Below the pieces are notes generated by a model, which had not been told where the DNA came from, did not search any database, and saw nothing but the letters and a program-made list of their open reading frames with translations. DNA of 64,000 nucleotides, from the NCBI RefSeq assembly GCF_003122385.1, contig NZ_CP029255.1, positions 1,674,001 to 1,738,000 on the forward strand, read 5' to 3'. Made by a program: the position numbers and the translations under genes. Each line of letters opens with the position of its first letter. Within the stretch, counting starts at the first letter, position 1. This document shows positions 1-55,711 of this stretch, in pieces. The DNA comes from Flavobacterium crocinum. GTDB lineage: Bacteria > Bacteroidota > Bacteroidia > Flavobacteriales > Flavobacteriaceae.

Positions 1-104
1 TTAGAGAAATTAGATAATTTCTTTAGACAGTTTGAATTTTAAGTTTAGTAATAACTTGAAACATTAAACCTGAAACTTCAAACAAAAAAAACAAAAACAA
101 CACA

Positions 105-1277: not shown

Positions 1278-1321
1278 TTTTAGATTGCAGATCTTAGACT
1301 TTAGATTTTCAATTTCTATAT

Positions 1322-4590: not shown

Positions 4591-5301
4591 ATGAGTGCGA
4601 GTATTGTACAAGAATTATTAGAGAAAACTGCAGCTCTTTCGCTTGACGAAACCTTAGTTTTTTTAGCAAAAGAATTTCCGGGAAAAGTAACTTTTTCGAC
4701 TTCTTTCGGTCAGGAAGATCAGGTAATTACCGATTTCATTGCAAAAAGTAATACAGATATAAAGGTATTTACTTTAGATACAGGAAGATTATTTCAGGAA
4801 ACGTATGATGTTTTTCACAAAACATTGAAAAAATATAAAAGACCGATTGAGGTTTATTTTCCGGAAGCGGCATCAGTTGAAAAACTATTGCAGGAAAAAG
4901 GTCCTAACAGTTTTTACGATTCGGTAGAAAACAGAAAAGAATGCTGTTTTATTCGAAAAGTTGTTCCATTAAGAAAAGCTTTGGCAGGAAACTCAGTTTG
5001 GATTACGGGATTAAGAGCCGAACAATCAGAAAACAGACACGATTTAAATCTGTTTGAATACGATGGAAACTTCGAAATCATAAAATTCAATCCGTTGTTA
5101 AAATGGACTTTAGAAGAAGTTGAAACGTATTTGTCAGAAAACAATGTTCCACAAAATGCATTGCACAAACAAGGTTTCGTAAGTATTGGATGTGCACCTT
5201 GTACCAGAGCAATTTTCCCAGGCGAAGACATCAGAGCCGGAAGATGGTGGTGGGAATCAAGCCATAAAGAGTGCGGGCTTCACAGTGCGAAAAAAGAATA
5301 A
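4591..5301 (+). CDS. cysH: Phosphoadenylyl/adenylyl-sulfate reductase (APS-type)
   Basis: This 236-residue enzyme reduces activated sulfate to sulfite using thioredoxin or a similar donor. The nucleotide-binding loop is at FSTSFGQEDQV (residues 35-45). The catalytic cysteine is in KECGLH (C228). Two extra pairs, CC (C118, C119) and CAPC (C201, C204), are the 4Fe-4S ligands that mark enzymes accepting APS directly. This fits the lack of an APS kinase (cysC) gene and the absence of a CysC domain on CysN. It follows the exporter gene by 26 bases and has an unusual strong Shine-Dalgarno site. Confidence 0.92.
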   Translation: MSASIVQELLEKTAALSLDETLVFLAKEFPGKVTFSTSFGQEDQVITDFIAKSNTDIKVFTLDTGRLFQETYDVFHKTLKKYKRPIEVYFPEAASVEKLLQEKGPNSFYDSVENRKECCFIRKVVPLRKALAGNSVWITGLRAEQSENRHDLNLFEYDGNFEIIKFNPLLKWTLEEVETYLSENNVPQNALHKQGFVSIGCAPCTRAIFPGEDIRAGRWWWESSHKECGLHSAKKE

Positions 5302-5340
5302 AGAATAAAGAAGCAAGAGCAAAGAAAATAGAATATAGAT
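5295..5340 (+). repeat. Heptad array (AGAATAA type)
   Basis: Six heptads in phase begin at 5295, just inside the cysH stop: AGAATAA, AGAATAA, AGAAGCA, AGAGCAA, AGAAAAT, AGAATAT. See the finding on 5409-5485. Confidence 0.7.
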
Positions 5341-5345
5341 TTAAA

Positions 5346-5390
5346 GTTCCGAAGGAACGATCCATATTGTAGTGCCGGATTTTAATCCGG
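5346..5390 (+). repeat. Two-hairpin dispersed repeat, copy 1
   Basis: GTTCCGAAGGAAC (5346-5358) is followed by a conserved spacer containing CCATATTGTAG and then CCGGATTTTAATCCGG (5375-5390). Further copies lie at 10710, 10785, 11504 and 14610. Confidence 0.8.
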
Positions 5391-5408
5391 GGGAGATTAG
5401 CGAGAATA

Positions 5409-5485
5409 GAATATAGAATATAGAATAAAGAGTGGAGATTTTAGATCAGGCAACTTGAAACCTGAAACTTAAAACTTGAAACTCA
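5409..5485 (+). repeat. Eleven in-phase heptads before cysD
   Basis: From 5409 the heptads are GAATATA, GAATATA, GAATAAA, GAGTGGA, GATTTTA, GATCAGG, CAACTTG, AAACCTG, AAACTTA, AAACTTG, AAACTCA. The period stays exactly 7 while the motif changes from GA(A/T)-type to AAACNTG-type. The array ends 22 bases before the cysD ATG. Confidence 0.75.
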
Positions 5486-5507
5486 CAAAATATCAAACAA
5501 AAAAACA

Positions 5508-6407
5508 ATGAGTTCAGTATTAAAAACAAACGCTTTAGAGAGTGAAGCGATATACATTTTCAGAGAAGTAATTTCACAGTTTGACAAACCGGTTTTGCTT
5601 TTCTCAGGAGGAAAAGATTCTATTACATTGGTGCGTTTAGCGCAAAAAGCATTTTTCCCTGCTAAGATTCCGTTTCCTCTTTTGCACGTTGATACGGGAC
5701 ACAATTTCCCTGAAACAATCGCTTTCAGAGATAAATTAGTAGAAGAATTAGGTTTAGAGTTGATCGTTCGTAATGTTCAGGATGCTATTGATGAAGGAAA
5801 AGTGGTGGAGGAAACTGGAAAATATTCAAGCCGTAACAGCTTACAGACAACAACACTTTTAGATGCCATTGAAGAATTTAAGTTTGATGCTTGTATTGGA
5901 GGCGCACGTCGTGATGAGGAAAAAGCAAGAGCTAAAGAACGTATTTTCTCTGTTCGTGATGATTTCGGACAATGGGACGAAAAAAATCAGAGACCAGAGT
6001 TGTTTGATATATTAAATGGAAAAATTGAAAATGGTCAAAACGTTCGTGTTTTCCCAATTTCAAACTGGACAGAATTAGATGTTTGGAGTTATATCGAGAA
6101 AGAAAAAATCGAGATTCCGTCAATCTATTTCTCACATAAAAGAAAAGTTTTTTTGAGAGACGGTTTAATCTGGTCACATTCTCCTTTTGTGTACCAAGAA
6201 GAAGACGAACAAATCGAAGAAAGAATTGTTCGCTTCAGAACCGTTGGAGATATGAGCTGTACAGCAGCTGTTGAATCTTATGCAGCAACAATCGAAGAAG
6301 TAGTTGGAGAAATTAGATCATCAACCATTTCTGAAAGAGGAGCCAGAATCGATGATAAACGTTCTGAAGCTGCAATGGAGAAAAGAAAACAACAGGGATA
6401 CTTTTAA
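5508..6407 (+). CDS. cysD: Sulfate adenylyltransferase subunit 2
   Basis: This is the catalytic subunit of ATP sulfurylase, which makes APS from sulfate and ATP with CysN. It has 299 residues, close to the usual 302. The PP-loop SGGKDS is at residues 33-38, followed by LLHVDTGHNFPET and the family signature GGARRDEEKARAKERIFS. The C-terminal GDMSCTAAV and the R-G-A-RIDDKR tail are typical. The ATG lies after a long heptad array. CysN follows after 103 bases of AT-rich repeat with no terminator, so the two are probably co-transcribed. Confidence 0.95.
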   Translation: MSSVLKTNALESEAIYIFREVISQFDKPVLLFSGGKDSITLVRLAQKAFFPAKIPFPLLHVDTGHNFPETIAFRDKLVEELGLELIVRNVQDAIDEGKVVEETGKYSSRNSLQTTTLLDAIEEFKFDACIGGARRDEEKARAKERIFSVRDDFGQWDEKNQRPELFDILNGKIENGQNVRVFPISNWTELDVWSYIEKEKIEIPSIYFSHKRKVFLRDGLIWSHSPFVYQEEDEQIEERIVRFRTVGDMSCTAAVESYAATIEEVVGEIRSSTISERGARIDDKRSEAAMEKRKQQGYF

Positions 6408-6410
6408 AGA

Positions 6411-6508
6411 TTGTATAATGTATGAAAGTATATTGTAAAACTGTTTTACGATATACATTTTATAAAAATACAATATACATTTTACAATAATTACAATATA
6501 CAATTTAA
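6411..6508 (+). repeat. AT-rich heptad-like array between cysD and cysN
   Basis: Units such as AATACAA, TATACAT and TTTACAA recur with a period near 7 across the whole gap and stop two bases before the cysN ATG. The array is less regular than the others. Confidence 0.5.
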
Positions 6509-6510
6509 GA

Positions 6511-7755
6511 ATGGACGTTTTAAAAATAGCAACAGCAGGAAGTGTAGATGACGGAAAAAGTACTTTGATCGGGAGATTATTGTACGATACAAAATCGTTG
6601 ACGACTGATAAAATAGAAGCAATCGAAAAAAGCAGTAAGCAAAAAGGATACGATTATCTTGATTTTTCTTTGGCAACTGACGGTTTAGTGGCAGAAAGAG
6701 AACAAGGAATCACGATTGATGTTGCGCACATTTATTTTTCGACTGCAAAGAAAAGTTACATTATCGCCGATACTCCAGGGCACGTAGAATATACAAGAAA
6801 CATGGTTACAGGAGCTTCGACTTCTCAGGTTTCTATCATTTTGATTGATGCCAGAAAAGGAGTAATTGAGCAAACATACCGTCATTTTTTTATCAATAAT
6901 TTATTGAGAGTAAAAGAGGTAATTGTTGCGATTAATAAAATGGATTTAGTTGATTATTCGGAAGAAGTTTTCAATAAAATCAAAGCCGATTTTCAGGCAT
7001 TAAATGCAAAAAGTACATTCAAAGAGCAAAACGTAAGCTATATTCCGTTAAGTGCAATCAACGGCGGAAACGTTGTGGACAAATCAGAGAATATGCCTTG
7101 GTATGAAGGACAAACGGTTTTAGAGCATTTAGAAGGATTGCATTCTCATGATGTTTTTGAAGCTGGAAAAGCACGTTTCCCGGTTCAGACAGTTATTCGT
7201 CCAAAAACAGAAGAATACCACGATTTTAGAGGTTACGCAGGAAAATTATATGGTAACTCAATTAAAGTTGGAGATGCCGTAACAGTTCTTCCTTCTTTAA
7301 CAGAATCAAAAGTATCTAAAATTCACTTTTTCGATAAAACATTTGACGAAGCTGTTGCAGGTTCTTCAATTACAATCGAATTAGAAAATGATATCAATGT
7401 TACAAGAGGCGATATGATTGTGAAATCAGATGAACTTCCAAAAATTGAAAAGGACATCACGACTACAGTTTGCTGGATGGACAGTAAAAAACTGGTTCCG
7501 GGAACTAAATATTTGGTACAACACAATACAAACAGAGTTTTAGCAAAAGTAGAAAGCATTAAAAATACAATTGCAACAGATTACTCGGGAACGACAGAAG
7601 CTTCACAATTAGCAATTAACGAAATTGGAGAAGTAACGATCAAATTAAGCAAACCGTTATATTTTGATTCATACAACGAAAACAAATCAAACGGAGCTTT
7701 CATCTTAATTGATACAGCAACTAACACAACAGCAGGAGTAGGATTCATTCGCTAG
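6511..7755 (+). CDS. cysN: Sulfate adenylyltransferase subunit 1 (GTPase)
   Basis: This is the GTPase subunit that drives APS synthesis with CysD. G1 is GSVDDGKST (residues 10-18), G3 is DTPGH (87-91) and G4 is NKMD (142-145), followed by EF-Tu-like domains 2 and 3. At 414 residues it is shorter than the E. coli protein (475) and carries no APS-kinase domain. That fits an APS-reducing pathway. It lies between cysD and the sulfite reductase gene on the same strand. Confidence 0.95.
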   Translation: MDVLKIATAGSVDDGKSTLIGRLLYDTKSLTTDKIEAIEKSSKQKGYDYLDFSLATDGLVAEREQGITIDVAHIYFSTAKKSYIIADTPGHVEYTRNMVTGASTSQVSIILIDARKGVIEQTYRHFFINNLLRVKEVIVAINKMDLVDYSEEVFNKIKADFQALNAKSTFKEQNVSYIPLSAINGGNVVDKSENMPWYEGQTVLEHLEGLHSHDVFEAGKARFPVQTVIRPKTEEYHDFRGYAGKLYGNSIKVGDAVTVLPSLTESKVSKIHFFDKTFDEAVAGSSITIELENDINVTRGDMIVKSDELPKIEKDITTTVCWMDSKKLVPGTKYLVQHNTNRVLAKVESIKNTIATDYSGTTEASQLAINEIGEVTIKLSKPLYFDSYNENKSNGAFILIDTATNTTAGVGFIR

Positions 7756-7830
7756 TTGATAGTTGATGGTTTTTGGTTGATAGATATTCTGCCAGCAAAC
7801 CAACAACCAGCAACTGACAACCAACAACTA
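7754..7830 (+). repeat. Eleven in-phase heptads between cysN and sulfite reductase
   Basis: From 7754, AGTTGAT, AGTTGAT, GGTTTTT, GGTTGAT, AGATATT, CTGCCAG, CAAACCA, ACAACCA, GCAACTG, ACAACCA, ACAACTA follow in one phase, ending seven bases before the next ATG. The two halves are roughly complementary (GGTTGAT against ACAACCA), so the RNA could fold. Confidence 0.75.
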
Positions 7831-7837
7831 AAGAGAA

Positions 7838-9928: not shown

Positions 9929-10694
9929 TATAAAACCCAAAATAACTTTAGTCGGTGCAGGTCCGGGCGATCCCGATTTACTGACGCTGAAAGCTGTAAA
10001 AGCATTGGCTGAAGCAAATGTGGTTTTGTACGACGCTTTGGCCAACGAAGAAATTCTGGATTACGCACCAAAAAATGCTATTAGAATTTTTGTTGGAAAA
10101 AGAATCGGAAATCATGCTTACTCGCAGGATCAAATCAATCAACTGATTGTGGATAATGCTTTGACTTACGGAAATGTAGTTCGATTAAAAGGCGGAGATC
10201 CATTTATTTTTGGAAGAGGAAGCGAAGAAGTGGAATTTGCAGAAAGTTTCGGAATAGAAACCATTGTAGTTCCGGGAATTTCATCAGTAGTTGCCGTTCC
10301 GGCAAGTCAGGGAATTTCAATTACAAAACGTGGAGTTTCAGAAAGCTTTTGGGTAATTACAGGAACAACTTCTGATAGAAAATTATCTTCGGATATTGCT
10401 TTATCAGCCAAATCTTCTGCAACCGTTGTGATTTTGATGGGAATGCACAAATTGCCTCAAATCATCGATTTGTTTCAAAAAGAAGATAAAGGGAATTTAC
10501 CCGTAGCAATCATTCAAAACGGAACAACAGCAGAAGAAAAAGTAGGCGTAGGAACCGTAGATTCGATTTTAGAAGTTGTAAAACAAAAAGAATTAGGTTC
10601 ACCAGCAATAATTGTTTTAGGTGAAGTGGTTCGGGAAAGCAATAAACTAAAAGGATTTTACGAAGAATTTCTATCAAAAGAAATCGCAAGATAA
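9921..10694 (+). CDS. cobA: Uroporphyrinogen-III C-methyltransferase
   Basis: This 257-residue SAM-dependent enzyme makes precorrin-2, the precursor of siroheme for the sulfite reductase just upstream. The tetrapyrrole-methylase motifs VGAGPGDPDLLTLKA (near residue 12), LKGGDPFIFGRG (near 90) and VVPGISSV are all present. It matches the C-terminal half of CysG, while the N-terminal half is a separate gene downstream. Its ATG lies inside the end of the reductase gene. Confidence 0.93.
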   Translation: MHNIKPKITLVGAGPGDPDLLTLKAVKALAEANVVLYDALANEEILDYAPKNAIRIFVGKRIGNHAYSQDQINQLIVDNALTYGNVVRLKGGDPFIFGRGSEEVEFAESFGIETIVVPGISSVVAVPASQGISITKRGVSESFWVITGTTSDRKLSSDIALSAKSSATVVILMGMHKLPQIIDLFQKEDKGNLPVAIIQNGTTAEEKVGVGTVDSILEVVKQKELGSPAIIVLGEVVRESNKLKGFYEEFLSKEIAR

Positions 10695-11684: not shown

Positions 11685-12737
11685 ATGATTAAAACAGATA
11701 TACTTATAATTGGAGCAGGCCCAACAGGTTTATTTGCCGTTTTCGAGGCAGGATTATTAAAATTAAAATGCCACATTTTAGATGCTTTGCCTCAGCCAGG
11801 CGGACAGCTTTCAGAATTATATCCTAAAAAGCCTATTTACGATATTCCAGGTTTTCCAGAAGTATTAGCCGGAGATTTAGTTGACGGTTTAATGGAACAA
11901 ATCAAGCAATTTGAGCCAGGATTTACATTAGGAGAACGTGCTGAAACTATTGATAAACAAGAAGACGGATCTTTCATTGTAACCTCAAACAAAGGAACTA
12001 AATTTCACGCGCCAGTTATTGCAATCGCGGGAGGTTTAGGGAGTTTTGAGCCTCGTAAACCACTTATCGAAGATATCGAGTTTTATGAAGATAAAGGAGT
12101 AAAATACTTCATCAAAAATCCGGAGAAATTCAGAGATAAAAGAGTTGTAATTGCAGGAGGAGGAGATTCAGCTTTAGACTGGTCAATTTTCTTAGCAAAC
12201 GTAGCTTCCGAGGTAACTTTGATTCACAGAAGAAACGAATTCAGAGGCGCTTTAGATTCTGTAGAAAAAGTACAGGAATTAAAATCAGCTGGAAAAATTA
12301 AATTAATCACGCCAGCTGAAGTTATAGGAATCAACGGTGCTGAGCATGTTGAATCATTAGATATCGAAGAAAACGGCGCACACCGTAAAATCGAGTGTGA
12401 CTATTTCATCCCACTTTTCGGATTAACACCAAAATTAGGTCCAATTGGAGACTGGGGATTAGAAATAGAGAAAAATGCCATCAAAGTAAATAATGCATTA
12501 GATTACCAGACGAATATTCCGGGAATCTTCGCTATTGGAGATATCAACACTTACCCAGGAAAATTAAAGTTGATCCTTTGTGGTTTCCACGAAGCAACTT
12601 TAATGTGCCAGGCTGCTTATTCAATCATCAACCCAGGTAAGAAATACGTATTGAAATATACAACAGTATCTGGAGTAGACGGTTTCGACGGAACTCGTAA
12701 AGAAGCGCCAAAAGCGGTTGTGAAGGCGATAGTCTAA
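11685..12737 (+). CDS. Ferredoxin--NADP(+) reductase, thioredoxin-reductase-like
   Basis: This 350-residue FAD/NAD(P) oxidoreductase lacks the CxxC redox motif of thioredoxin reductase and matches the YumC-type ferredoxin reductases. The FAD site is IIGAGPTGLFAV (near residue 7). The NADPH-binding GGGDSALDW lies in the middle, and a C-terminal FAD motif GIFAIGDINTYPGKLK follows. It is the likely electron supply for the sulfite reductase, an inference from gene order. A terminator hairpin follows about 45 bases after the stop. Confidence 0.88.
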   Translation: MIKTDILIIGAGPTGLFAVFEAGLLKLKCHILDALPQPGGQLSELYPKKPIYDIPGFPEVLAGDLVDGLMEQIKQFEPGFTLGERAETIDKQEDGSFIVTSNKGTKFHAPVIAIAGGLGSFEPRKPLIEDIEFYEDKGVKYFIKNPEKFRDKRVVIAGGGDSALDWSIFLANVASEVTLIHRRNEFRGALDSVEKVQELKSAGKIKLITPAEVIGINGAEHVESLDIEENGAHRKIECDYFIPLFGLTPKLGPIGDWGLEIEKNAIKVNNALDYQTNIPGIFAIGDINTYPGKLKLILCGFHEATLMCQAAYSIINPGKKYVLKYTTVSGVDGFDGTRKEAPKAVVKAIV

Positions 12738-12748
12738 GGTTTTAAGTT

Positions 12749-12770
12749 GCTAAGACACTAAGATTCTAAG
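12749..12770 (+). repeat. 8-bp period array, reverse CTTAG type
   Basis: TGCTAAGA, CACTAAGA and TTCTAAG show CTAAG every eight bases. This is the reverse complement of the CTTAGNNN arrays at 12999, 13504, 15876 and 55786. Confidence 0.65.
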
Positions 12771-12782
12771 ATTTTTATATAG

Positions 12783-12818
12783 AAAGCTCAAACTTTTAGT
12801 TTGGGCTTTATTTTTTTA
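12783..12818 (+). terminator. Terminator after the ferredoxin reductase gene
   Basis: AAAGCTCAAAC (12783-12793) pairs with GTTTGGGCTTT (12799-12809), allowing G-U, and a T run follows. Confidence 0.75.
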
Positions 12819-12832
12819 GAAAACACATAAAA

Positions 12833-12952
12833 ATATAGCCAGTGGTTTCAACCACTGGAACACAACGAATAGACACAAAGTATTACCGCAACATATAAAC
12901 ACAATGTATAATTACAATACGTTTCCCGTGGTTAAAACCACGGGCTATATTT
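12833..12952 (+). repeat. REPIN-like pair of inverted palindromes
   Basis: CCAGTGGTTTCAACCACTGG (12839-12858) is preceded by AAATATAG. CCCGTGGTTAAAACCACGGG (12925-12944) is followed by CTATATTT. The two palindromes and their tails form a 120-base inverted unit. It lies in the 813-base gap before metH. Confidence 0.75.
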
Positions 12953-12998
12953 GAAAACAAGAACTAAATTTCAAACTTGGGATCTCAGCATATCAAAA

Positions 12999-13035
12999 CT
13001 TAGAACCTTAGCATCTTAGTCCCTCAGCACCTTAC
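12999..13035 (+). repeat. CTTAGNNN array upstream of the metH promoter
   Basis: The units are CTTAGAAC, CTTAGCAT, CTTAGTCC, CTCAGCAC, CTTAC, an exact 8-bp period. Confidence 0.7.
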
Positions 13036-13046
13036 AAAAAAAACAT

Positions 13047-13077
13047 TTGCAAATCGAAACCCTATTTCATACCTTTG
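13047..13077 (+). promoter_or_regulatory. Promoter of the SAM riboswitch-metH transcript
   Basis: TTG (13047-13049), a 20-base spacer, and TACCTTTG (13070-13077) fit the flavobacterial consensus exactly. Transcription would start about 15-20 bases before the riboswitch. Confidence 0.8.
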
Positions 13078-13097
13078 CGCTGTTCTTAAAATTATTG

Positions 13098-13216
13098 TTC
13101 GTTATCACGAAAGGCGGAGGGATAGACCCGATGAAACCTTAGCAACCCTTTATCATAAAGAAGGTGCTAAATTCTACTTTATACGACATTTTCCAGTATT
13201 AAAGATAGATAACACA
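13098..13216 (+). ncRNA. SAM-I (S-box) riboswitch
   Basis: The closing helix P1 is GTTATC (13101-13106) with GATAAC (13208-13213). Between them lie the S-box core elements GGCGGAGGGA, GACCCGATGAAACC, TAGCAACC and AAGGTGCTAAATTC in the expected order. It would lower methionine-synthase expression when SAM is plentiful. No clear terminator or ribosome-site switch follows directly. Instead about 335 bases rich in dispersed repeats separate it from the metH start. Confidence 0.92.
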
Positions 13217-13320
13217 AATACATACTCGTATTTCTCAAAACTTTTCTCGATAACATATAATATTTACTGAAACAGATTCTGTATCAGGAGCGAATCATTG
13301 GCGCATTTTTGCAGTCAGTA

Positions 13321-13390
13321 GTTCCCGCTTTTCGTTGCAATCATTTTGTCCGCCGCGGCGGACAAAATGATTTCCACTTCAATCGGGGCT
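13321..13390 (-). repeat. Structured flavobacterial repeat, copy 1, in the metH leader
   Basis: Read on the minus strand it runs AGCCCCGATTGAAGTGG, then a hairpin, then TTGCAACGAAAAGCGGGAAC. The inner hairpin is a perfect 32-base palindrome (13340-13371) centred on CCGCCGCGGCGG. Related copies lie at 15729 and 29347. Confidence 0.75.
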
Positions 13391-13439
13391 AATGAGCCAG
13401 CAATAGTGCACTTTTGGAATTAATGTGAAAAAAATATCC

Positions 13440-13486
13440 GAAGTTTAAACCTAACAGGTTTTAAAAACCTGTTAGGTTTAAACTTC
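13440..13486 (+). repeat. 27-nt REP-like palindrome inside a 47-bp perfect palindrome
   Basis: The core at 13450-13476 is CCTAACAGGTTTT, one base, and its complement. It is identical in its arms to copies flanking the RAYT gene near 43.3-44.1 kb. Here the arms extend outward as GAAGTTTAAA and TTTAAACTTC. Confidence 0.85.
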
Positions 13487-13503
13487 ACAATCATAATAAA
13501 AAA

Positions 13504-13535
13504 CTTAGCATCTTAGAACCTTAGTGTCTTAGAAG
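13504..13535 (+). repeat. CTTAGNNN array in the metH leader
   Basis: CTTAGCAT, CTTAGAAC, CTTAGTGT, CTTAGAAG lie in one 8-bp phase and end 15 bases before the metH ATG. Confidence 0.7.
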
Positions 13536-13550
13536 CTAAAACAAAAGAAT

Positions 13551-14555
13551 ATGGCAATTACGATAAAAGAAGCAATAAAAAAAAATATCCTAATCCTTGA
13601 CGGAGCAATGGGAACAATGTTGCAGCGCTATAATTTCTCTGAAGAAGATTTTAGAGGAGAGCGTTTCAAAGATTTTCCGCATCCATTAAAAGGAAACAAC
13701 GATTTACTATCCCTAACACAACCACAAGCGATTCGCGATGTACATGCCGCTTATTATGAAGCCGGTGCTGACATTGTAGAAACCAATACCTTTTCAGGAA
13801 CGACAATCGGTATGGCCGATTATCACATGGAAGATTTGGTTTACGAGTTAAACTACGAATCGGCAAAAATCGCAAGACAAGTAGCCGATGAGTTTACCGC
13901 AAAAAATCCGGAAAAACCACGTTTCGTAGCCGGTTCAATCGGGCCGACAAACCGTACAGCAAGTATGTCACCAGATGTAAACGATCCAGGTTACAGAGCC
14001 GTAACGTTCGACGATTTACGAATTGCGTACAAACAACAAGCAGAAGCTTTAATGGACGGTGGCTGTGATTTGCTTTTAGTAGAAACGATTTTCGATACTT
14101 TAAACGCAAAAGCGGCGCTTTTTGCAATCGAAGAAGTAAAAGAAGAACGCAATCTTGATATTCCAATCATGGTTTCAGGAACGATTACAGATGCTTCAGG
14201 AAGAACACTTTCAGGACAAACTGTTGAAGCATTTTTAATTTCCGTTTCGCATATTCCGTTATTAAGTGTAGGATTCAATTGCGCTCTTGGAGCCGATTTA
14301 TTGAAACCGTATTTAAAAACATTAGCGCATAACACAAGCTTTAATGTTTCGGCGCATCCAAACGCAGGATTGCCAAACGCTTTCGGACAATACGATGAAA
14401 CACCAGAACAAACTCAAGTTTTTATTAAAGAATATTTAGAGGATAATTTGATTAATATAATCGGTGGTTGTTGCGGAACAACGCCAGATCATATCCGATT
14501 AATGGCTGAGGTTGCGAAGGATTATAAACCTAGAGTTGCGCCGGTTTTTGAGTAA
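13551..14555 (+). CDS. metH: Methionine synthase, homocysteine-binding module
   Basis: This 334-residue protein corresponds to the N-terminal barrel of cobalamin-dependent MetH. The start [11 protein letters not shown] is typical, and the zinc/homocysteine cysteines are C244 (GFNCALG) and the pair C307, C308 (GGCCGTTP). It binds and activates homocysteine. The remaining modules are encoded at 15920-18595, so the enzyme is split. In related bacteria the two parts usually lie side by side, whereas here a nuclease gene separates them. The transcript begins with a SAM-I riboswitch. Confidence 0.93.
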
Positions 14556-15819: not shown

Positions 15820-15875
15820 CCAAAATATTAAAAGAATAGAGGTTTAAAAACCTTAAAAAATATAGAATAAAAAAA

Positions 15876-15908
15876 CTTAGAACCTTAGTATCTCAGGATC
15901 TTAGTAAC
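15876..15908 (+). repeat. CTTAGNNN array before the second metH gene
   Basis: CTTAGAAC, CTTAGTAT, CTCAGGAT, CTTAGTAA in one 8-bp phase, ending 11 bases before the ATG. Confidence 0.7.
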
Positions 15909-15919
15909 TTTAAAAAAAA

Positions 15920-18595
15920 ATGAAAGAAAAAAGAAGAGACCTTGTATTATCAGGATTAGAACCGTTGATCATCACGCCGGAAAGTGTTTTCGTGAATGTT
16001 GGTGAGCGTACAAATGTAACAGGTTCAAGAAAATTCTTGAGACTAATCAAGGAAGAGAAATATGACGAGGCGCTTGATATTGCAAGACAACAGGTAGAAG
16101 GCGGGGCACAGATCATCGATATTAATATGGATGAAGGAATGCTTGACGGTGTTACTGCAATGACTAAATTTTTGAATTTAATTGCGGCTGAACCAGACAT
16201 TTCAAGAGTTCCGATTATGATTGACAGTTCGAAATGGGAAATCATTGAAGCAGGTCTAAAAGTAGTACAAGGAAAAAGCGTTGTAAACTCGATTTCGTTA
16301 AAAGAAGGAGAAGAAGCTTTTATTCACCACGCCAAATTAATCAAACGTTACGGAGCGGCGGCGATTGTTATGGCTTTCGACGAAGTAGGTCAGGCGGATA
16401 ATTACGATCGTCGAGTAGAGATTTGTCAGCGTTCGTATGATATTTTGGTGAACAAAGTAGGATTCCCTCCGCAGGATATTATTTTCGATTTGAATATTTT
16501 CCCAGTTGCAACGGGAATGGAAGAGCATAGATTGAACGCATTGGATTTCTTTAGAGGAACAAAATGGGTTCGTGAAAACTTGCCTCATGCACATATTAGT
16601 GGTGGAGTAAGTAATGTTTCGTTTTCTTTTAGAGGAAATGATACAGTTCGTGAAGCGATGCACTCGGTGTTTTTATATCACGCAATCAAAAACGGAATGA
16701 CGATGGGAATCGTAAATCCGGAGATGTTGACGATTTACGATGATATTCCGAAAGACTTATTAGAACACGTTGAAGACGTAATTTTAGATAGACGCGATGA
16801 TGCTACGGAACGACTTTTAGATTTTGCCGACAGCGTAAAAGGTGAAGCAAAAAGCGATGAAAAAACGGTTCAGGAATGGCGTTTAGGAACGGTTCAAGAG
16901 CGTATTACACATTCTCTTGTGAAAGGAATTGACGCTTTTATTGAAGAAGATGTAGAAGAAGCACGTTTGGCAGCAACAAAACCTATTGAAGTTATCGAAA
17001 TCAATTTGATGACGGGAATGAATGTGGTTGGAGATTTATTCGGAAGCGGAAAAATGTTCCTGCCTCAGGTGGTAAAATCGGCTCGTGTAATGAAAAAAGC
17101 GGTGGCGTATTTATTGCCTTTTATCGAAGCGAGCAAACAAGCGGGGGACAAACAAGGAAACGGAAAAATCTTGATGGCAACCGTAAAAGGCGACGTTCAC
17201 GATATTGGTAAAAACATCGTTTCGGTGGTTTTGGCTTGTAACAATTATGAGATTGTAGATTTAGGTGTTATGGTGCCTCCGGAAAAAATTATTTCGGCTG
17301 CAATTGAGCATAATGTAGATATCATCGGATTAAGCGGATTGATAACGCCTTCGCTTGACGAAATGGTGTATTTGGCCAAAGAATTAGACAAACAAGGAAT
17401 TAAAATCCCGATTATGATTGGTGGTGCAACCACTTCACGCGCGCATACGGCCGTGAAAATTGCACCTCAATACAGAGAAACTGTAATTCACGTTAACGAT
17501 GCTTCGAGAGCCGTTACCGTTGCCGGAAACCTGTTAGATCATAACAGAAAAATATACGCGGCAGATATTCGTGCAGAATATGATTCTTTTAGAGAAACGT
17601 TCTTAAATCGTTCAAGAGACAAAAATTTCTTAACGATTGAAGATGCTCGTAAAAACAAATTACCATTGGATTGGAGTGAATATACTCCAGTTAAACCAAA
17701 AGTAATTGGTGCACAAACGATCGAAGTAGAATTGGATGTTTTGGTTCCGTATATCGACTGGACGCCATTTTTCCAGACTTGGGAATTGTACGGAAAATAT
17801 CCAGCAATTTTAACGGATGAGGTTGTGGGCGAACAAGCGACTTCGGTTTTTAACGATGCTCAAGCAATGCTGAAAGTAATTCTGGAAGAGAAAAAACTGA
17901 AAGCAAAAGGTATTTACGGAATTTTCCCTGCAAATCAGGTAAATGACGATGATATCGAATTACGCGATGAAAACGGAAAAGTTTTAGAGAAATTCTTAAC
18001 ACTTCGTCAGCAGTCTCAAAAAACTAAAGGTGCACCAAACATCGCTTTAGCCGATTTTATTCTGCCAAAAGAAAGCGGAATAGAAGATTACATGGGAGCT
18101 TTTTGTGTAACAACTGGTTTTGGTGTTGACGAATGGGCTGCGGAATACGAAAAGAATTTAGACGATTATAATTCGATTATGGTGAAAGCGCTTGCCGATC
18201 GTTTTGCTGAGGCTTTCGCCGAATATCTTCACGAGCGAGTTCGTAAAGATTTCTGGGGTTATGACAGCGAAGAATCGTTAACCAACGAAGAATTGATTAA
18301 GGAAAATTATAAAGGAATTCGTCCGGCACCGGGTTATCCGGCTTGTCCTGATCACTTAGAAAAACCAACGATTTGGAAACTTTTAAATGTAGCCGAAGAA
18401 ATTGGAGTGACTTTGACAGAAAGCATGGCGATGTGGCCAGCTTCATCGGTTTCAGGATATTATTTCGGAAATCCAAAAAGCCGCTATTTCGGACTCGGAA
18501 AAATAAAAGAAGATCAGGTTGTAGATTACGCCAAACGACGCAATGTTCCAACGGATTACGCCATGAAATGGTTAAATCCTAATATAGCAGATTAA
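15920..18595 (+). CDS. metH: Methionine synthase, folate/cobalamin/reactivation modules
   Basis: This 891-residue protein carries the rest of cobalamin-dependent MetH. The pterin-binding barrel starts at [15 protein letters not shown] (near residue 20). The B12 cap and B12-binding domains follow, with [10 protein letters not shown] placing the axial histidine at H427. The C-terminal reactivation domain contains [15 protein letters not shown] and binds SAM. It transfers methyl from methyl-tetrahydrofolate to homocysteine held by the separate N-terminal module at 13551-14555. MetF, which makes the methyl donor, follows. Confidence 0.95.
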
Positions 18596-18602
18596 AAATA
18601 TA

Positions 18603-18750
18603 GTCGAAAGTCAAAAGTCGTAAAGTCCGAAAGAAAAGGCTTTGGACTTTAGACTTTCAGACTTTAAACTAAAAGATTGATTTAAGTTTTTGATTTCAGA
18701 TTTTTTACACGAACTAAAAACTCAAAACACTTAACTCATAACCCATAACT
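18603..18750 (+). repeat. Heptad arrays between metH and metF
   Basis: A first array begins GTCGAAA, GTCAAAA, GTCGTAA (18603) and continues with GACTTTA, GACTTTC (18645). A second, AAAACTC, AAAACAC, TTAACTC, ATAACCC, ATAACTT (18716-18750), ends seven bases before the metF ATG. The stretch between them is only weakly periodic. Confidence 0.6.
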
Positions 18751-18756
18751 TAAAAA

Positions 18757-19713
18757 ATGAAAGTAACAGAGCATATAGAAAACGCCAAAGGAAAAACATT
18801 ATTCTCATTTGAAATTATTCCGCCTCAAAAGGGGAAGAGCATTCAGGAATTATACGATAATATTGATCCGTTGATGGAATTTAATCCGCCATTTATTGAT
18901 GTAACGACTTCTCGTGAAGAATATATTTACATTGATAAAGGTAACGGACTTTTGGATAAGAAATTAACTCGTATGCGTCCGGGAACGCTTGGAATTTGCG
19001 CTTCTATAAAACACAAATACAATGTTGACACTGTTCCGCATTTGCTTTGCGGTGGTTTTACCAAAGAAGAAACCGAGTATATGCTGGTTGATTGTCATTA
19101 TTTAGGAATCAACAATGTAATGGCGCTTCGTGGTGATGCAATGAAAGACGAACAGTCTTTTGTGCCAAAAGCAGGAGGAAATCATTACGCAGTTGATTTG
19201 GTGAAACAAATTAAAGATTTAAACTGCGGGCAATACCTTCACGAAGTAATCGATACCGATAACAAAGCAGATTTTTGTATTGGTGTTGCAGGATATCCGG
19301 AAAAACATTTAGAATCTCCATCTTTACAATCTGATTTAAAAAGATTAAAAGAAAAAGTAGACGCAGGAGCTGATTATGTGGTAACACAAATGTTTTTTGA
19401 CAACTCAAAATATTTTGCCTTTGTAGAAAAAGCAAGAGAAATGGGCATCACAATTCCGATTATTCCTGGAATTAAGCCAATTGCTGTTCAAAGACATTTA
19501 CAGGTTTTACCGCAAATTTTCAGAATCGATTTACCTGAAGATTTAATCGATGCGGTTGATAAATGCAAAAATAATGCTGAAATCAAACAAGTCGGAATCG
19601 AATGGGCGATTCAGCAGTCATTAGAATTAAAAGCTGCCGGAGTTCCGTTTTTACACTATTATTCAATGGGGAAGTCGGAGAACATTCGTCAGATCGCGAG
19701 TCAGGTTTTTTAA
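18757..19713 (+). CDS. metF: Methylenetetrahydrofolate reductase
   Basis: This 318-residue flavoenzyme reduces methylene-THF to methyl-THF, the methyl donor for MetH. The barrel begins with FSFEIIPPQKG, contains ALRGD (near residue 127) for flavin/folate binding, and has the conserved GADYVVTQMFFDN and IIPGIKPI. Length is normal for a bacterial MetF. It closes the sulfur/methionine block, followed by MITE-like repeats rather than a clear terminator. Confidence 0.95.
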   Translation: MKVTEHIENAKGKTLFSFEIIPPQKGKSIQELYDNIDPLMEFNPPFIDVTTSREEYIYIDKGNGLLDKKLTRMRPGTLGICASIKHKYNVDTVPHLLCGGFTKEETEYMLVDCHYLGINNVMALRGDAMKDEQSFVPKAGGNHYAVDLVKQIKDLNCGQYLHEVIDTDNKADFCIGVAGYPEKHLESPSLQSDLKRLKEKVDAGADYVVTQMFFDNSKYFAFVEKAREMGITIPIIPGIKPIAVQRHLQVLPQIFRIDLPEDLIDAVDKCKNNAEIKQVGIEWAIQQSLELKAAGVPFLHYYSMGKSENIRQIASQVF

Positions 19714-29255: not shown

Positions 29256-29346
29256 TTTACAGAGTTATCTTAAAAGTGAACATTTTGCAAATATAATATA
29301 TTTTATTATTTAAAGTAAATTCTTATGAAAATTAAAACTTCTACTC

Positions 29347-29414
29347 TAGCCCCGATAGGAGCGGTATCCTTTTGTGTTGGGGTTCAACACAAAAGATATA
29401 GCGGATAGCGGGAC
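29347..29414 (+). repeat. Structured flavobacterial repeat, copy 3
   Basis: AGCCCCGATAGGAGCGGTATC, an inner hairpin CTTTTGTGTT/AACACAAAAG (29369-29378, 29386-29395), then ATAGCGGATAGCGGGAC. The flanks match copies at 13321 (minus strand) and 15729, while the hairpin is different in each. Confidence 0.8.
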
Positions 29415-29574
29415 TGAACGTGATTTTGAAACTGGAAATTTTCTGCTCCAAAAAAAGAATAACAGCGAAAGTAAAAACGAAACGAATTATAACTAAATCC
29501 GGTCTCATTTGTTGGGATGAAAACACTATGGGAGAAATTAAGCACAGTACTGCATTAGAATTTTGGAATGTTTT

Positions 29575-29710: not shown

Positions 29711-29752
29711 GAATAATCTAATAATCTAAATTCAGAAATCTAAAATTCAAAA
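29711..29752 (+). repeat. Heptad array abutting the dgt start codon
   Basis: GAATAAT, CTAATAA, TCTAAAT, TCAGAAA, TCTAAAA, TTCAAAA run in phase and end exactly at the ATG at 29753. Confidence 0.65.
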
Positions 29753-31099
29753 ATGAACTGGGAACAACTTTTATCCTTAAGACGTCAGGGAGATACAAGC
29801 AAAAGATTACGTGTAGAACAAGATGATACTCGTTTGGGGTTTGAGGTAGATTATGACCGAATTATTTTCTCATCTGCTTTTAGAAGTTTACAAGATAAAA
29901 CACAGGTTATTCCGCTTTCTAAAACCGATTTCGTACATACCCGTTTAACGCACAGTTTGGAAGTTTCGGTTGTAGGACGTTCGCTTGGGCGTTTGGTTGG
30001 AAAAAAAATCATAGAGAAATATCCGTATTTAAAAGAAGTTCATGGTTATCATATGAACGATTTTGGAGCTATCGTGGCGGCGGCTTCTTTAGCGCACGAT
30101 ATCGGTAATCCGCCTTTTGGACATTCGGGTGAAAAAGCAATTGGAGAATATTTTTCTATCGGAAACGGGCAGAAATTTAGAAATCAGCTGACTGATAAAC
30201 AATGGCAGGATTTAATTGATTTTGAAGGAAATGCCAACGGATTTTCTGTATTAACAGCAAGCCGTCCGGGAATTGAAGGCGGACTTCGTATTTCGTATGC
30301 TACTTTAGGTGCCTTTATGAAATATCCAAAAGAAAGTCTTCCGAAGAAACCAACTAACAATATTTCAGATAAAAAATACGGTTTCTTTCAATCTGATAAA
30401 TTATTTTTTGAAGAAGTGGCCAAAGATATGGGAATGATTGCCAATAAATCCGGAGAGAATATTGGTTTTGAAAGACATCCTTTAGCTTATTTGGTTGAAG
30501 CGGCAGACGATATTTGTTATACCATTATTGACTTTGAAGACGGAATAAATTTAGGTCTGGTTTCTGAAGATTATGCTTTAGAATATCTGATTAAATTGGT
30601 AAAAGATAATATTGGTGTTGCTAAATACAAAACATTAGAAACCAAAGAAGACAGAATAAGCTACTTGCGTGCACTTGCAATCGGTTCTTTAATTAATGAT
30701 GCTGTTGATGTTTTTATTGAAAATGAAGAAGCGATTCTGGCTGGGAAATTTCCGTATGCTTTGACAGATAAAAGTAAATACAAAGCGCAGATGAATGATA
30801 TCATCAAATTAAGTATTGAGAAAATTTATCAAAGCCGCGAAGTGATTGAAAAAGAGATAGTGGGGTATCAAATTATCCAGACTTTATTGGACAAATTTAT
30901 TACCGCTTTCAATAATAAATATGAAGGAACGGCTTCAAACTACGATAAGTTGATTTTGAAAATGTTGCCGGAAAAACACCATTTAGACAAGGGGAATTTA
31001 TATGAACGTTTGTTGCACATTTGTCATTACGTTTCATTGCTTACAGATGGAAATGCATTGGAATTGTATGAAACAATTCAGGGACAGAAAAAGCGTTAA
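29753..31099 (+). CDS. dgt: Deoxyguanosinetriphosphate triphosphohydrolase (dGTPase)
   Basis: This 448-residue HD-domain enzyme hydrolyses dGTP or other dNTPs to the nucleoside and triphosphate. The HD ligands are visible in HTRLTHSLEV (H62, H67) and SLAHDIGNPPFGHSGE (H115, D116, H124), with a later D in EAADDICYTI. The N-terminal RSLQDKTQV is typical. It keeps dNTP pools in balance. A strong terminator separates it from the convergent DUF3078 gene. Confidence 0.92.
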   Translation: MNWEQLLSLRRQGDTSKRLRVEQDDTRLGFEVDYDRIIFSSAFRSLQDKTQVIPLSKTDFVHTRLTHSLEVSVVGRSLGRLVGKKIIEKYPYLKEVHGYHMNDFGAIVAAASLAHDIGNPPFGHSGEKAIGEYFSIGNGQKFRNQLTDKQWQDLIDFEGNANGFSVLTASRPGIEGGLRISYATLGAFMKYPKESLPKKPTNNISDKKYGFFQSDKLFFEEVAKDMGMIANKSGENIGFERHPLAYLVEAADDICYTIIDFEDGINLGLVSEDYALEYLIKLVKDNIGVAKYKTLETKEDRISYLRALAIGSLINDAVDVFIENEEAILAGKFPYALTDKSKYKAQMNDIIKLSIEKIYQSREVIEKEIVGYQIIQTLLDKFITAFNNKYEGTASNYDKLILKMLPEKHHLDKGNLYERLLHICHYVSLLTDGNALELYETIQGQKKR

Positions 31100-43400: not shown

Positions 43401-43991
43401 GTGGAGAAGGACGTTTTTGAGGTAGGAAAATATTATCATGTCTATAACCGAGGAAATAATAGTGAGAATATTTTTATTGAAGAGAAAAATTACAATTACT
43501 TTCTGGAAAAGGTTAAAAAATATATTTTACCAATAGCAGATATTTATGCCTACTGTTTACTTAAAAACCATTTTCATATTGTTCTAAGAATTAAAGATAA
43601 AATTGATCTGCCTGAAAAGTTTAAAGAAAAAATTCACCTGCCATTTTCTAATTTATTTAATTCTTATTCTAAGAGTATAAACAAAGCTTATAATCGGACA
43701 GGAAGTTTATTTCAAGAGCATTTAGAGAGAAATAGAATAGAAAATGAAGAATATTTAAGGCAGTTAATTTTGTATGTTCATTTAAATCCAGTGAAGCATA
43801 AATTTTTAAAAGATTTCCAATCGTATAAGCATTCATCTTATTGCTCTTATTTATCTGATAAGCCAAGTAGTATTGATCGAGAGTTTATTATAGAATTATT
43901 CAACGATCTGGAAAATTTTATATTTTGCCATGATGAAAGAAAGTTGATTTATGAAGGTGTGCTTAGTGATGTAAATTTACTTGATCAATAG
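43401..43991 (+). CDS. REP-associated tyrosine transposase (RAYT, Y1/HUH family)
   Basis: This 196-residue protein is an IS200-like HUH transposase without IS ends. The HUH motif is HFH (H57, H59) in CLLKNHFHIVLRI. The N-terminal YYHVYNRGNN and the later EEYLRQLILYVHLNPVKHKF, with the probable catalytic tyrosine (Y118 or Y125), match the RAYT pattern. The start is GTG. Pairs of 27-nt palindromes flank the gene on both sides, and identical palindromes occur elsewhere in the window. That is the expected genomic signature of a RAYT and its REP substrate. It sits between the A2M and pbpC genes. Confidence 0.88.
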   Translation: MEKDVFEVGKYYHVYNRGNNSENIFIEEKNYNYFLEKVKKYILPIADIYAYCLLKNHFHIVLRIKDKIDLPEKFKEKIHLPFSNLFNSYSKSINKAYNRTGSLFQEHLERNRIENEEYLRQLILYVHLNPVKHKFLKDFQSYKHSSYCSYLSDKPSSIDREFIIELFNDLENFIFCHDERKLIYEGVLSDVNLLDQ

Positions 43992-49814: not shown

Positions 49815-49884
49815 GTTTCAGGTTTCAGGTTTCAAGTTTCAAGTTTTGCAACTCAATAACTCATGACTCATAACTCATAACTGA
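49815..49884 (-). repeat. Ten in-phase heptads upstream of rng
   Basis: On the plus strand: GTTTCAG, GTTTCAG, GTTTCAA, GTTTCAA, GTTTTGC, AACTCAA, TAACTCA, TGACTCA, TAACTCA, TAACTGA. The motif changes halfway but the phase does not. The array ends 27 bases before the rng start. Confidence 0.75.
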
Positions 49885-49944
49885 ATTGTAAGGATGGATT
49901 AAACAATATTTTTAACAGGTATTAACCCGGAGAAAACTAGCTGG

Positions 49945-50014
49945 CAGTTTGCAGTTTTAAGTAATCAGTGGACTGAACGCTAAAAACTGATGACTGAATA
50001 CTAATTTTCAATTT
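49945..50014 (-). repeat. Second heptad array, after the small basic gene
   Basis: On the plus strand: CAGTTTG, CAGTTTT, AAGTAAT, CAGTGGA, CTGAACG, CTAAAAA, CTGATGA, CTGAATA, CTAATTT, TCAATTT, ten in phase. Confidence 0.65.
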
Positions 50015-54811: not shown

Positions 54812-55678
54812 ATGGATACAAAACAGTTAAAATGGCTGTACTTAGGGATTCTTTCTCTTATTTGGGGAAGTTCTTTTATTCTAATAAAAAAGGGATTAAT
54901 TGGTTTGACTGCCATTCAGGTTGGTTCCTTCCGAATCATTTTTGCCGCATTGTTTTTATTGATTTTTGGGTTTAATAGTTTAAGAAAAATTTCCCGCCGT
55001 CAATGGAAGTATGTTGCTATAACTTCATTTTTTGGGACTTTTATGCCGGCTTATCTTTTTGCTATCGCCGAAACCAAAGTAAATAGTTCGATTGTGGCAA
55101 TTTTAAATTCGCTAACGCCTTTAAATACATTAATTTTAGGAATAATAGTTTTTGGAATTCAGTTTCAGAAAAGACAGGTTTTAGGAGTTTTTATCGGTCT
55201 TGTTGGTTGTTTACTATTGGTTTTAAGTGGAGATTCTGCTGGCGGAACTCAAAATTATTTGTATGTGTTGTTGGTTGTTATCGCTACACTTAGTTACGCC
55301 ATAAACGTAAATCTTATTAAAAAATATTTACATGACTTAAATTCGATAAGCATTACAACCGGAAACTTTGCGGTGCTTTTTCTGCCTTCATTAATCATTT
55401 TAAGTACAACTGGAATCAGTCAGAAAATACATTTTGCAGAAACGCAACATTCGATATTTTTTGTAATGATTTTGGGAGTTTTAGGAACCGGTATAGCTAA
55501 TATTCTTTTCTTTAAACTGATTCAGATGTCATCTCCGGTTTTCGCAACATCGGTAACGTATTTGATTCCAATCGTTGCTTTTTTCTGGGGATTATTAGAT
55601 AATGAAATGTTGACGCCAATTCAGTCGGTAGGTGCATTTATTATTTTGATTGGGGTTTATTTGTCGGCTAAGAAATGA
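54812..55678 (+). CDS. EamA/DMT superfamily transporter
   Basis: This 288-residue protein has ten hydrophobic helices in two EamA repeats. The first starts LGILSLIWGSSFILIKKGL and the second YVLLVVIATLSYAINVNL. Members export metabolites such as amino acids or drugs; the substrate is unknown. It is read from its own transcript, divergent from the HMA gene. A heptad array follows the stop. Confidence 0.85.
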   Translation: MDTKQLKWLYLGILSLIWGSSFILIKKGLIGLTAIQVGSFRIIFAALFLLIFGFNSLRKISRRQWKYVAITSFFGTFMPAYLFAIAETKVNSSIVAILNSLTPLNTLILGIIVFGIQFQKRQVLGVFIGLVGCLLLVLSGDSAGGTQNYLYVLLVVIATLSYAINVNLIKKYLHDLNSISITTGNFAVLFLPSLIILSTTGISQKIHFAETQHSIFFVMILGVLGTGIANILFFKLIQMSSPVFATSVTYLIPIVAFFWGLLDNEMLTPIQSVGAFIILIGVYLSAKK

Positions 55679-55683
55679 TTTGA

Positions 55684-55711
55684 AGTTATGAGTTTTAGGT
55701 TATGAGTTATG
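55684..55711 (+). repeat. Short heptad array (AGTTATG)
   Basis: AGTTATG, AGTTTTA, GGTTATG, AGTTATG in phase. The unit is the complement of the ACTCATA unit seen near 49864. Confidence 0.6.

Follow-up and report, generated by a model that had tools for sequence, protein, structure and literature searches.

Short-period repeat arrays between Flavobacterium genes are probably arms of small hairpin elements resembling rRNA intervening sequences

Introduction

What holds a tandem repeat to nearly one period when its sequence changes from gap to gap? The question is raised by a 64,000-nucleotide stretch (hereafter, the window) at positions 1674001-1738000 of a 5.88-Mb Flavobacterium chromosome, with F. 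anhuiense, F. resistens and F. johnsoniae among its closest named relatives when cysN loci are compared. A preliminary description had reported intergenic arrays with a strict 7-bp period whose motif changes without slipping out of phase, had taken them to point to a mechanism or constraint acting on the 7-bp spacing itself and had named the STRR arrays of cyanobacteria as the nearest analogue. STRRs are tandem heptameric repeats in the intergenic DNA of cyanobacteria; to our knowledge, such heptameric repeats are used for typing and have no accepted origin.

Repeats of the TAACTGA type occur in Beggiatoaceae, Cyanobacteria and five Bacteroidetes, and PMC4679880 puts forward translational regulators as an idea and cites Mrazek et al. 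2007 for slippage. The Coxiella intervening sequence (IVS) is a stem of 28-bp terminal inverted repeats with the S23p ORF in its loop and is excised by RNase III; three tandem heptamers, two in some strains, precede the ORF (PMC4990558). In that source, S23p is held to be probably not produced in vivo, the RNA is perhaps more important, and the S23/IVP proteins (PF05635) are said to be of no known function. PF05635 has been reported to resemble Avd of diversity-generating retroelements (PMC10053308). REP and REPIN sequences are defined by a conserved palindrome tagged GTAG or CGTC, a definition that we take partly from PMC3733652 and partly from general knowledge. Apart from the heptamer remark in PMC4990558, a licence-limited literature search returned no link between heptad arrays and IVP genes.

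Results

Period and abundance of the arrays

Heptad arrays were present at the positions given in the preliminary description, and the lag-7 autocorrelation on which it had staked its reading exceeded chance in the window. Intergenic identity at lag 7 was 0.328, compared with 0.302 in 100 dinucleotide shuffles (z = 5.65) and 0.269 in window coding DNA, and lag 7 ranked highest of lags 1-40. There were 14 lag-7 segments in the window gaps, a density of 14.1 per 10 kb; the corresponding densities were 1.0 in shuffles and 0.4 in coding DNA. Across 743 gaps from 60 stretches of the same genome, some of which were picked for containing hits, a stricter cut gave 48 segments at lag 7 (1.0 shuffled, 0.6 coding-normalised) and 33 at lag 8 (1.2 shuffled, 0.1 coding-normalised), with 5, 5 and 6 segments at lags 6, 9 and 10. 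At a looser cut, the periods formed a single peak at 7-8 with a fainter tail at 9-10; coding DNA showed little. Fourteen evenly spaced stretches of the genome showed a weaker excess, with 13 segments at lag 7 (3.9 versus 2.1 per 10 kb) and 15 at lag 8 (4.5 versus 1.7 per 10 kb), indicating that the window is unusually rich in arrays. Arrays become sparser elsewhere in the phylum: we found 10 lag-7 segments versus 1.2 shuffled in 8 stretches of the same family, 3 versus 0.2 in 11 stretches of the order and class, and 2 versus 0.8 in 20 stretches of other classes.

The preliminary description was right in part. Arrays beyond chance, with a common period and differing words, are borne out, and the strictness of the period is not. 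The array at 29711..29752 (plus strand), 5' of the start codon at 29753, has a period of 8, and the supposedly strict heptads at 6411-6508 contain slips (TRF period 7, 12% indels). The absence of slip claimed for 5409-5485 does not hold across species: among the 26 of 81 cysH-cysD gaps in which both of its arrays could be anchored, the offset between them modulo 7 was 4 in 11 gaps, 0 in 6, 1 in 6, and 3, 5 and 6 in one each (cysH, cysD, cysN, nir, metH and metF are names read off translations, not from a database). The window is among the six gaps with offset 0, and 'in phase' is itself barely defined for two arrays of different words. The interpretation fared likewise, with its likeness to STRRs upheld (below) and the constraint on exact 7-bp spacing unsupported, since period 8 is almost as frequent and phase varies between species.

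Pairing, placement and orientation

The window and the 60 stretches together (61 sequences) yielded 178 segments in 130 of 785 gaps. Arrays sharing a gap were inverted relative to one another in 23 of 53 pairs and direct in 8, compared with 26 and 17 of 400 control pairs taken across gaps. They lie close to gene ends (median distance 14 nt versus 54 at random, for 141 arrays in gaps of at least 120 nt) and follow an orientation rule. The four main families were forward 36 times and reverse 5 times before starts, and reverse 61 times and forward 15 times after stops; over the nine families tested, 40 of 47 before-start arrays were forward and 64 of 87 after-stop arrays were reverse. The AGAATA family breaks the rule. 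The conserved feature is the architecture of two inverted arms fitted between gene ends, not the exact 7-bp spacing.

Of two other views of the arrays, the first was rejected and the second is kept as a lead. As flanks of single ORFs instead of gaps, pairs were inverted in only 1 of 5 cases, versus 13 of 21 for gap pairs. Stop codons in all frames were considered as the purpose of the period: the fraction with stops in three frames was 0.42 for before-start heptads (antisense 0.19, shuffles 0.17) and 0.20 for after-stop heptads (antisense 0.34, shuffled 0.17), so the latter fail to exceed antisense. Octads were above shuffles at both gene ends, with 0.72 versus 0.44 antisense after stops and 0.44 versus 0.56 before starts.

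Elements in the window

Three heptad hairpins lie on the plus strand. A TACAATA-armed, ORF-less hairpin at 6408..6510 fills the gap between the stop codon at 6407 and the start at 6511 (32-nt arms, 72% complementary), and a GTTG/CAAC hairpin at 7753..7831 also fills its gap, its 5' arm starting inside the stop codon. An AGTC/GACTTT hairpin at 18601..18671, past the stop codon at 18595, has 31-nt arms that are 71% complementary with 9 nt between them; a CATAAC arm (18712..18749, plus strand) lies 5' of the start codon at 18757. Also on the plus strand are an AAAC-family arm at 52..83, directly 5' of the start codon at 105 (any partner would fall outside the window), a TAGAYTT arm at 1282..1315, 4 nt past the stop codon at 1277 (lag-7 score 9.2), and AGTTATG heptads at 55684..55711, past the stop codon at 55678. 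On the minus strand, GTTTCAR heptads with an adjoining AACTCAT array (49815..49882) lie upstream of a minus-strand gene starting at 49788, and CAGT heptads with inverted arms occupy 49939..50014; by eye, like words flank an IVP gene of the same genome (L290).

The array at the centre of the preliminary description consists of two plus-strand halves, AGAATA-type heptads at 5406..5446 (lag-7 score 17.6) and an AAACYTG arm at 5452..5483, 24 nt 5' of the start codon at 5508, whose family has many copies in the same genome. Further upstream, AGA-type heptads at 5295..5340 (plus strand) start just short of the stop codon with which a gene ends at 5301, and extend across it. No inverted repeat of at least 14 nt was found in this gap (5295-5510), nor an inverted partner for the AGAATA heptads.

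Octad arms, all on the plus strand, lie further along. A gene that ends at 12737 has its stop codon inside the first word of a CTAAGNNN arm at 12734..12780, and an inverted CTTAGNNN arm lies at 12996..13032; between the two arms are a terminator-like hairpin and REP-like palindromes. Additional CTTAGNNN arms lie at 13504..13532, downstream of a SAM riboswitch and 5' of the start codon at 13551, and at 15873..15910, 5' of the start codon at 15920. Rfam matches in the window comprise the SAM riboswitch and two Flavo-1 RNAs (13099-13215, 13317-13394 and 29344-29419).

REP-like palindromes (GTTCCGAAGGAACG, CCGGATTTTAATCCGG) are present within array-bearing gaps at 5341-5400 and 12830-12960 of the window, and those at cysH-cysD occur in some species only. 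An ORF at 43401-43991 resembles, by eye, a RAYT/Y1 transposase. A link of the arrays to the REP palindrome was set aside: a narrow pattern for it occurred in 2 of the 130 gaps with arrays and in 5 of the 655 without.

Octads and the spread of word families

Period-8 arrays are nearly as frequent as heptads and are of CTTAGNNN/CTAAGNNN and CTTTGNNN/CAAAGNNN types; CTTAG octads were found in 37 of 101 genomes of the genus. Among 116 convergent gaps, 17 contained octads and 12 heptads; the counts were 19 and 43 for 507 codirectional gaps, and 3 and 6 for 120 divergent ones. The arms straddle a terminator-like hairpin in each of the three octad gaps that were read completely. Adjacent NNN spacer triplets of octads differ above chance (Hamming distance 2.19 versus 1.84, z 5.6, 150 pairs in five genomes), which is not what plain slippage gives; the effect was smaller in fetched loci (1.95 versus 1.78, 321 pairs). 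In the window (12743-13532) and in genomes of the genus, the spacers are mainly A-first triplets alternating with others. Adjacent AAAC units are more similar than random.

A phylum search with AAACYTG arrays gave matches in 34 of 198 genomes, with at least six matches in 7 of 9 other genomes of the genus and elsewhere solely in G113. This 2.4-Mb genome, of the same phylum and another class, far from Flavobacterium, has 131 matches. In another genus of the family, there is a heptad array (L142:10351-10706) in whose part 10521-10654 all 19 heptads keep T and C in the same columns and vary in the others; a stretch of the array ending CTTTTTCC.GATTCTAT.TTCAAAAAATAATT is present twice. Unit number varies between species, the cysH-cysD gap of L009 having two 7-nt units more than that of L001.

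Different words in the same gap

Of 81 genomes, 70 have arrays or GC-rich hairpins in the cysH-cysD gap, 73 in the cysD-cysN gap and 71 in the cysN-nir gap; for two other cys-operon gaps of similar length, the counts are 2 of 77 and 4 of 76. Depending on the species, the cysN-nir gap contains heptads of the GTTG or AAGC type or GC-rich hairpins, and L040 and L041 differ in array family between 400-nt flanks that are 98% and 97.5% identical. GC-rich hairpins of the CCCCTCC...GGAGGGG type occupy these gaps in L054, L061, L068-L070, L189, L203 and L210. The metH-metF gap, read by eye in 30 loci including the own genome of the window, had AGTC arms in 8, AAAC-like arms in 8, solo GTTG arms in 2, GTTG arms with an IVP ORF in 4, GC-rich hairpins in 4, other arms in 2 and none in 2. 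Three of the four ORF-bearing loci (G245, G212 and G227) have a PF05635 match just upstream of metF; in the fourth, L191, only the 3' part of the IVP ORF is left, by eye.

Nearest neighbours by flanking gene shared an array family in 45 of 78 cases on the cysN side (38.6 ± 5.5 expected) and in 53 of 78 on the nir side (38.4 ± 5.3 expected), with families labelled by crude word counts that put GC-rich hairpins in either class. Exchange of the whole neighbourhood is thus only weakly indicated as the source of family change, the tie between flank and family being weak.

Hairpin folding in RNA

The median folding z relative to shuffles was -2.36 in codirectional gaps free of arrays (n = 283), -2.84 in those with a single array (n = 44) and -4.69 in those with at least two (n = 15). 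One-array codirectional gaps folded no better than array-free ones in the fraction with z below -2 (0.57 and 0.55). Long hairpins were also frequent without arrays, at 127 of 312 array-free versus 37 of 62 array gaps in codirectional and 59 of 73 versus 21 of 24 in convergent orientation. Mismatches in codirectional array hairpins showed no wobble asymmetry (42 G-U versus 37 A-C), which we counted against selection on the hairpins at the RNA level. Across 25 GTTG-type cysN-nir gaps chosen by hand, a stem of 11 pairs was formed in 94.9% of cells, with covariation equalled by 1 of 500 shuffles. This covariation comes mainly from one pair, UA in 12 species and GC in 10.

Arrays around IVP genes in Bacteroidota

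PF05635 was found in 60 of 61 genomes of the genus, 157 of 198 genomes of the phylum and 0 of 14 control genomes. An array was scored as associated with an IVP gene when it lay within 70 nt of the ORF, on either or both sides; the loci are the best-scoring matches and were thus not drawn at random, and the 55 include groups of 15, 10 and 6 with a common context. Control ORFs came from a crude ORF caller and may include IVP genes and their neighbours. Two of 30 genus loci (L221, L240) and two of 29 phylum loci (L243, L265) were left out because the central ORF was too long. Among genus loci, 22 of 28 had an array on either side and 11 of 28 on both, versus 210 and 20 of 978 control ORFs from the own genome. 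In other genera of Bacteroidota, the counts were 19 and 5 of 23, versus 31 and 0 of 486 control ORFs in 40 phylum stretches; keeping four same-genus loci in the phylum set gave 23 and 8 of 27. When each downstream context was represented by a single locus, 19 of 22 had an array on either side.

IVP genes are codirectional with both neighbours at 27 of 28 loci in the genus and at 24 of 27 in the phylum. Strict controls were limited to ORFs of codirectional runs whose gaps measure 25-250 nt. Against these, the excess was retained on either side (22/28 versus 36/132, p = 6e-7) and on both sides (11/28 versus 7/132, p = 1e-5) in the genus, and on either side in other genera (19/23 versus 4/57 strict phylum controls, p = 5e-11). 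A loose inverted-match score (11 of 13) separated IVP loci poorly from controls (22/28 versus 395/978), so a stricter alignment score was adopted, by which flanks had a strong inverted alignment in 17 of 28 genus loci versus 6 of 132 strict controls (p = 4e-11).

The own genome has six IVP genes. Five of them have detected arrays on both sides within 150-nt flanks, and at L290 AGTGGTC-type repeats are visible by eye below the detector cut. The 70-nt rule gave arrays on either side for 5 of 6 and on both for 3 of 6, and 5 of 6 have strong inverted flanks; the arms of L293 match better in direct (27) than in inverted (18.5) orientation. Window 6401-6515, the TACAATA hairpin, aligns with both flanks of L225 with a score of 28.5, the best of 200 downstream-flank shuffles reaching 21. 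In PDB, the L225 protein matches 2gsc (E 1.4e-22) and 2rld (E 1.1e-4).

An IVP ORF is absent from all elements in the window and present in related elements of the own genome and of two phyla; the genome has six IVP genes, compared with 130 array-bearing gaps among the 785 surveyed. The AAAC family, to which half of the array at 5409-5485 belongs, was on 0 of 57 IVP loci, as were the AGAATA and CATAAC families as typed. The AAAC array is tied to IVP elements through inverted pairs of its family elsewhere and through its use at the metH-metF gap alongside IVP-bearing GTTG elements. IVP genes flanked by CTTTG octads (L217, L229, L231, L238 and L267) and by CTTAG octads (L211-L213, L215 and L226) sit in apparently the same gap.

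Cyanobacterial plasmids and beyond

A plasmid search with the L225 protein returned 29 records, all cyanobacterial by name except Azospirillum and Gemmatirosa. Heptad or octad arrays flanked 12 of 14 cyanobacterial plasmid IVP loci on either side and 7 of 14 on both, although L280, L281 and L284 have similar arm words and may be non-independent. Of 165 control ORFs in 50-kb stretches taken from four of these plasmids, 12 had arrays on either side and none on both; for strict controls, the counts were 4 and 0 of 25. Long, near-exact STRR-type heptad arrays are present at L270, L271 and L276. The likeness to cyanobacterial STRRs is thus borne out and reaches further than the preliminary description supposed, as heptad arrays flank IVP genes both in cyanobacterial plasmids and in Bacteroidota. 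The Azospirillum plasmid locus (L282) has repeats on both sides, by eye, and the annotated plasmid IVP loci (L282 is without annotation) sit between CDSs.

Three IVP genes of cyanobacterial plasmids lie in cas operons (L271, L274 and L283; between cas6 and cas4, and between cas10 and a cmr3-like gene), with arrays on both sides at L271, on one side at L283 and an inverted flank match only at L274. These genes may be passengers and not immune genes.

Discussion

Arrays that pair in inverted orientation, sit at gene ends, differ in family at one and the same gap and are enriched at IVP genes in two phyla are probably the arms of small intergenic, IVS-like hairpin elements, most of them without an ORF and a minority enclosing an IVP gene. 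Such an element would have an arm of 7- or 8-nt units past a stop codon; the second, inverted arm would precede the start of the next gene or lie at the stop codon that faces the first. It would be the intergenic counterpart of the 23S rRNA IVSs, whose stem surrounds the S23/IVP ORF, and every copy in the window would be solo, lacking the ORF. We infer that the element is transcribed with its operon and that the arms pair in the mRNA; by analogy with IVSs, RNase III may then cut it, so that insertion between cistrons would be tolerated. Slippage in steps of 7-8 nt would add or remove units, and since both arms repeat one word, pairing would survive these steps; the period would thereby be preserved even as the word drifts or gives way to another. 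As a guess, the IVP protein might help the element spread or bind its arms.

Comparison with known systems helps to place the elements. They share with 23S rRNA IVSs the inverted terminal arms that form a stem, although not in every array, a small four-helix-bundle ORF between the arms in some copies outside the window and the heptamers that precede the ORF in the Coxiella IVS (PMC4990558). They differ in lying between protein-coding genes, in arms built of 7- or 8-nt units, in being mostly ORF-less and in using many word families per genome. The window elements lie between ORFs, with no rRNA in the window by Rfam, and being outside rRNA and without an ORF they are not filed as IVSs. Like STRRs and TAACTGA repeats, they are tandem intergenic heptamers above chance, several per region, found in Cyanobacteria and Bacteroidetes and often just before starts; the accessible accounts of those repeats describe tandem arrays (PMC4679880), whereas here they form inverted pairs at gene ends, also have period 8 and flank IVP genes. 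REP/REPIN sequences with RAYT transposases are likewise palindromic, intergenic and dispersed, but the REP-like palindromes here have a conserved sequence of their own and a separate site in some array gaps, and the arm families have no tagged palindrome or other core in common. With Avd of diversity-generating retroelements, the shared feature is the PF05635 likeness (PMC10053308).

Would neutral replication slippage that favours 7-8-nt units in non-coding DNA, and nothing more, leave the same traces? The single peak at 7-8, the little signal in coding DNA and the similarity of adjacent AAAC units agree with it. Inverted pairing within gaps, gene-end placement with an orientation rule, the scarcity of octads in divergent compared with convergent gaps, occupation of three cys gaps in 70 to 73 of 81 genomes, octad neighbours that differ more than chance and the IVP enrichment do not, and we consider this explanation decidedly unlikely; given the pairing, the octad spacers and the IVP link, plain slippage alone is insufficient. 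The constraint on 7-bp spacing first proposed was dropped as extremely improbable in view of the period-8 arrays and the variable phase between arrays, even with the T and C held at fixed columns in the heptads of L142. Hairpins useful to the host, intercistronic or 3', might instead stabilise or separate cistrons, with their structure under selection and the IVP genes incidental. Such selection would suit the persistence of arrays while words change, the strong folding of codirectional gaps with at least two arrays and the compensatory pair in the cysN-nir stem. We judge it rather unlikely, as the wobble asymmetry was not seen, the IVP enrichment is left unexplained and octad arms lie on both sides of a terminator-like hairpin in the gaps read, so that they may belong to different transcripts.

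The relationship could also run in the reverse direction, with independent heptad hairpins into which IVP genes, as mobile passengers, prefer to insert. Arrays are far more numerous than IVP genes, the metH-metF gap occurs both with and without one, and arm families and IVP genes sometimes part, as with the CTTAG and CTTTG octads; however, heptamers precede the S23 ORF within an rRNA gene, where no prior hairpin would be expected (PMC4990558), and we regard this direction as possible but doubtful. Binding sites for translational or transcriptional regulators, such as the S1, Csp or Csr proteins suggested for TAACTGA repeats in PMC4679880, seem very unlikely when one gap is served by many unrelated words and convergent gaps without start codons also bear arrays, although arms do lie upstream of starts, combine fixed words with variable spacers and, as before-start heptads, are enriched in three-frame stops.

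A broader reading can be put forward tentatively, and we would not yet bet on it: heptad and octad repeats of Bacteroidota, Cyanobacteria and some Proteobacteria might form one mobile family, spread by the Avd-like IVP protein, acting in cis or trans, through an RNA or single-stranded intermediate, with slippage during arm copying making the 7-8-nt units and RNase III excision keeping the insertions harmless. On this view, STRRs, TAACTGA repeats and rRNA IVSs would all be instances of a single phenomenon.

Seen side by side with IVP genes in two phyla, the arrays would become the arms of an element with a candidate protein. IVP genes that lie in operons, for example between the cas genes at L271, L274 and L283, should accordingly not be assumed to be functional parts of those systems; they would become parts of hairpin elements in operons, a context that can be tested.
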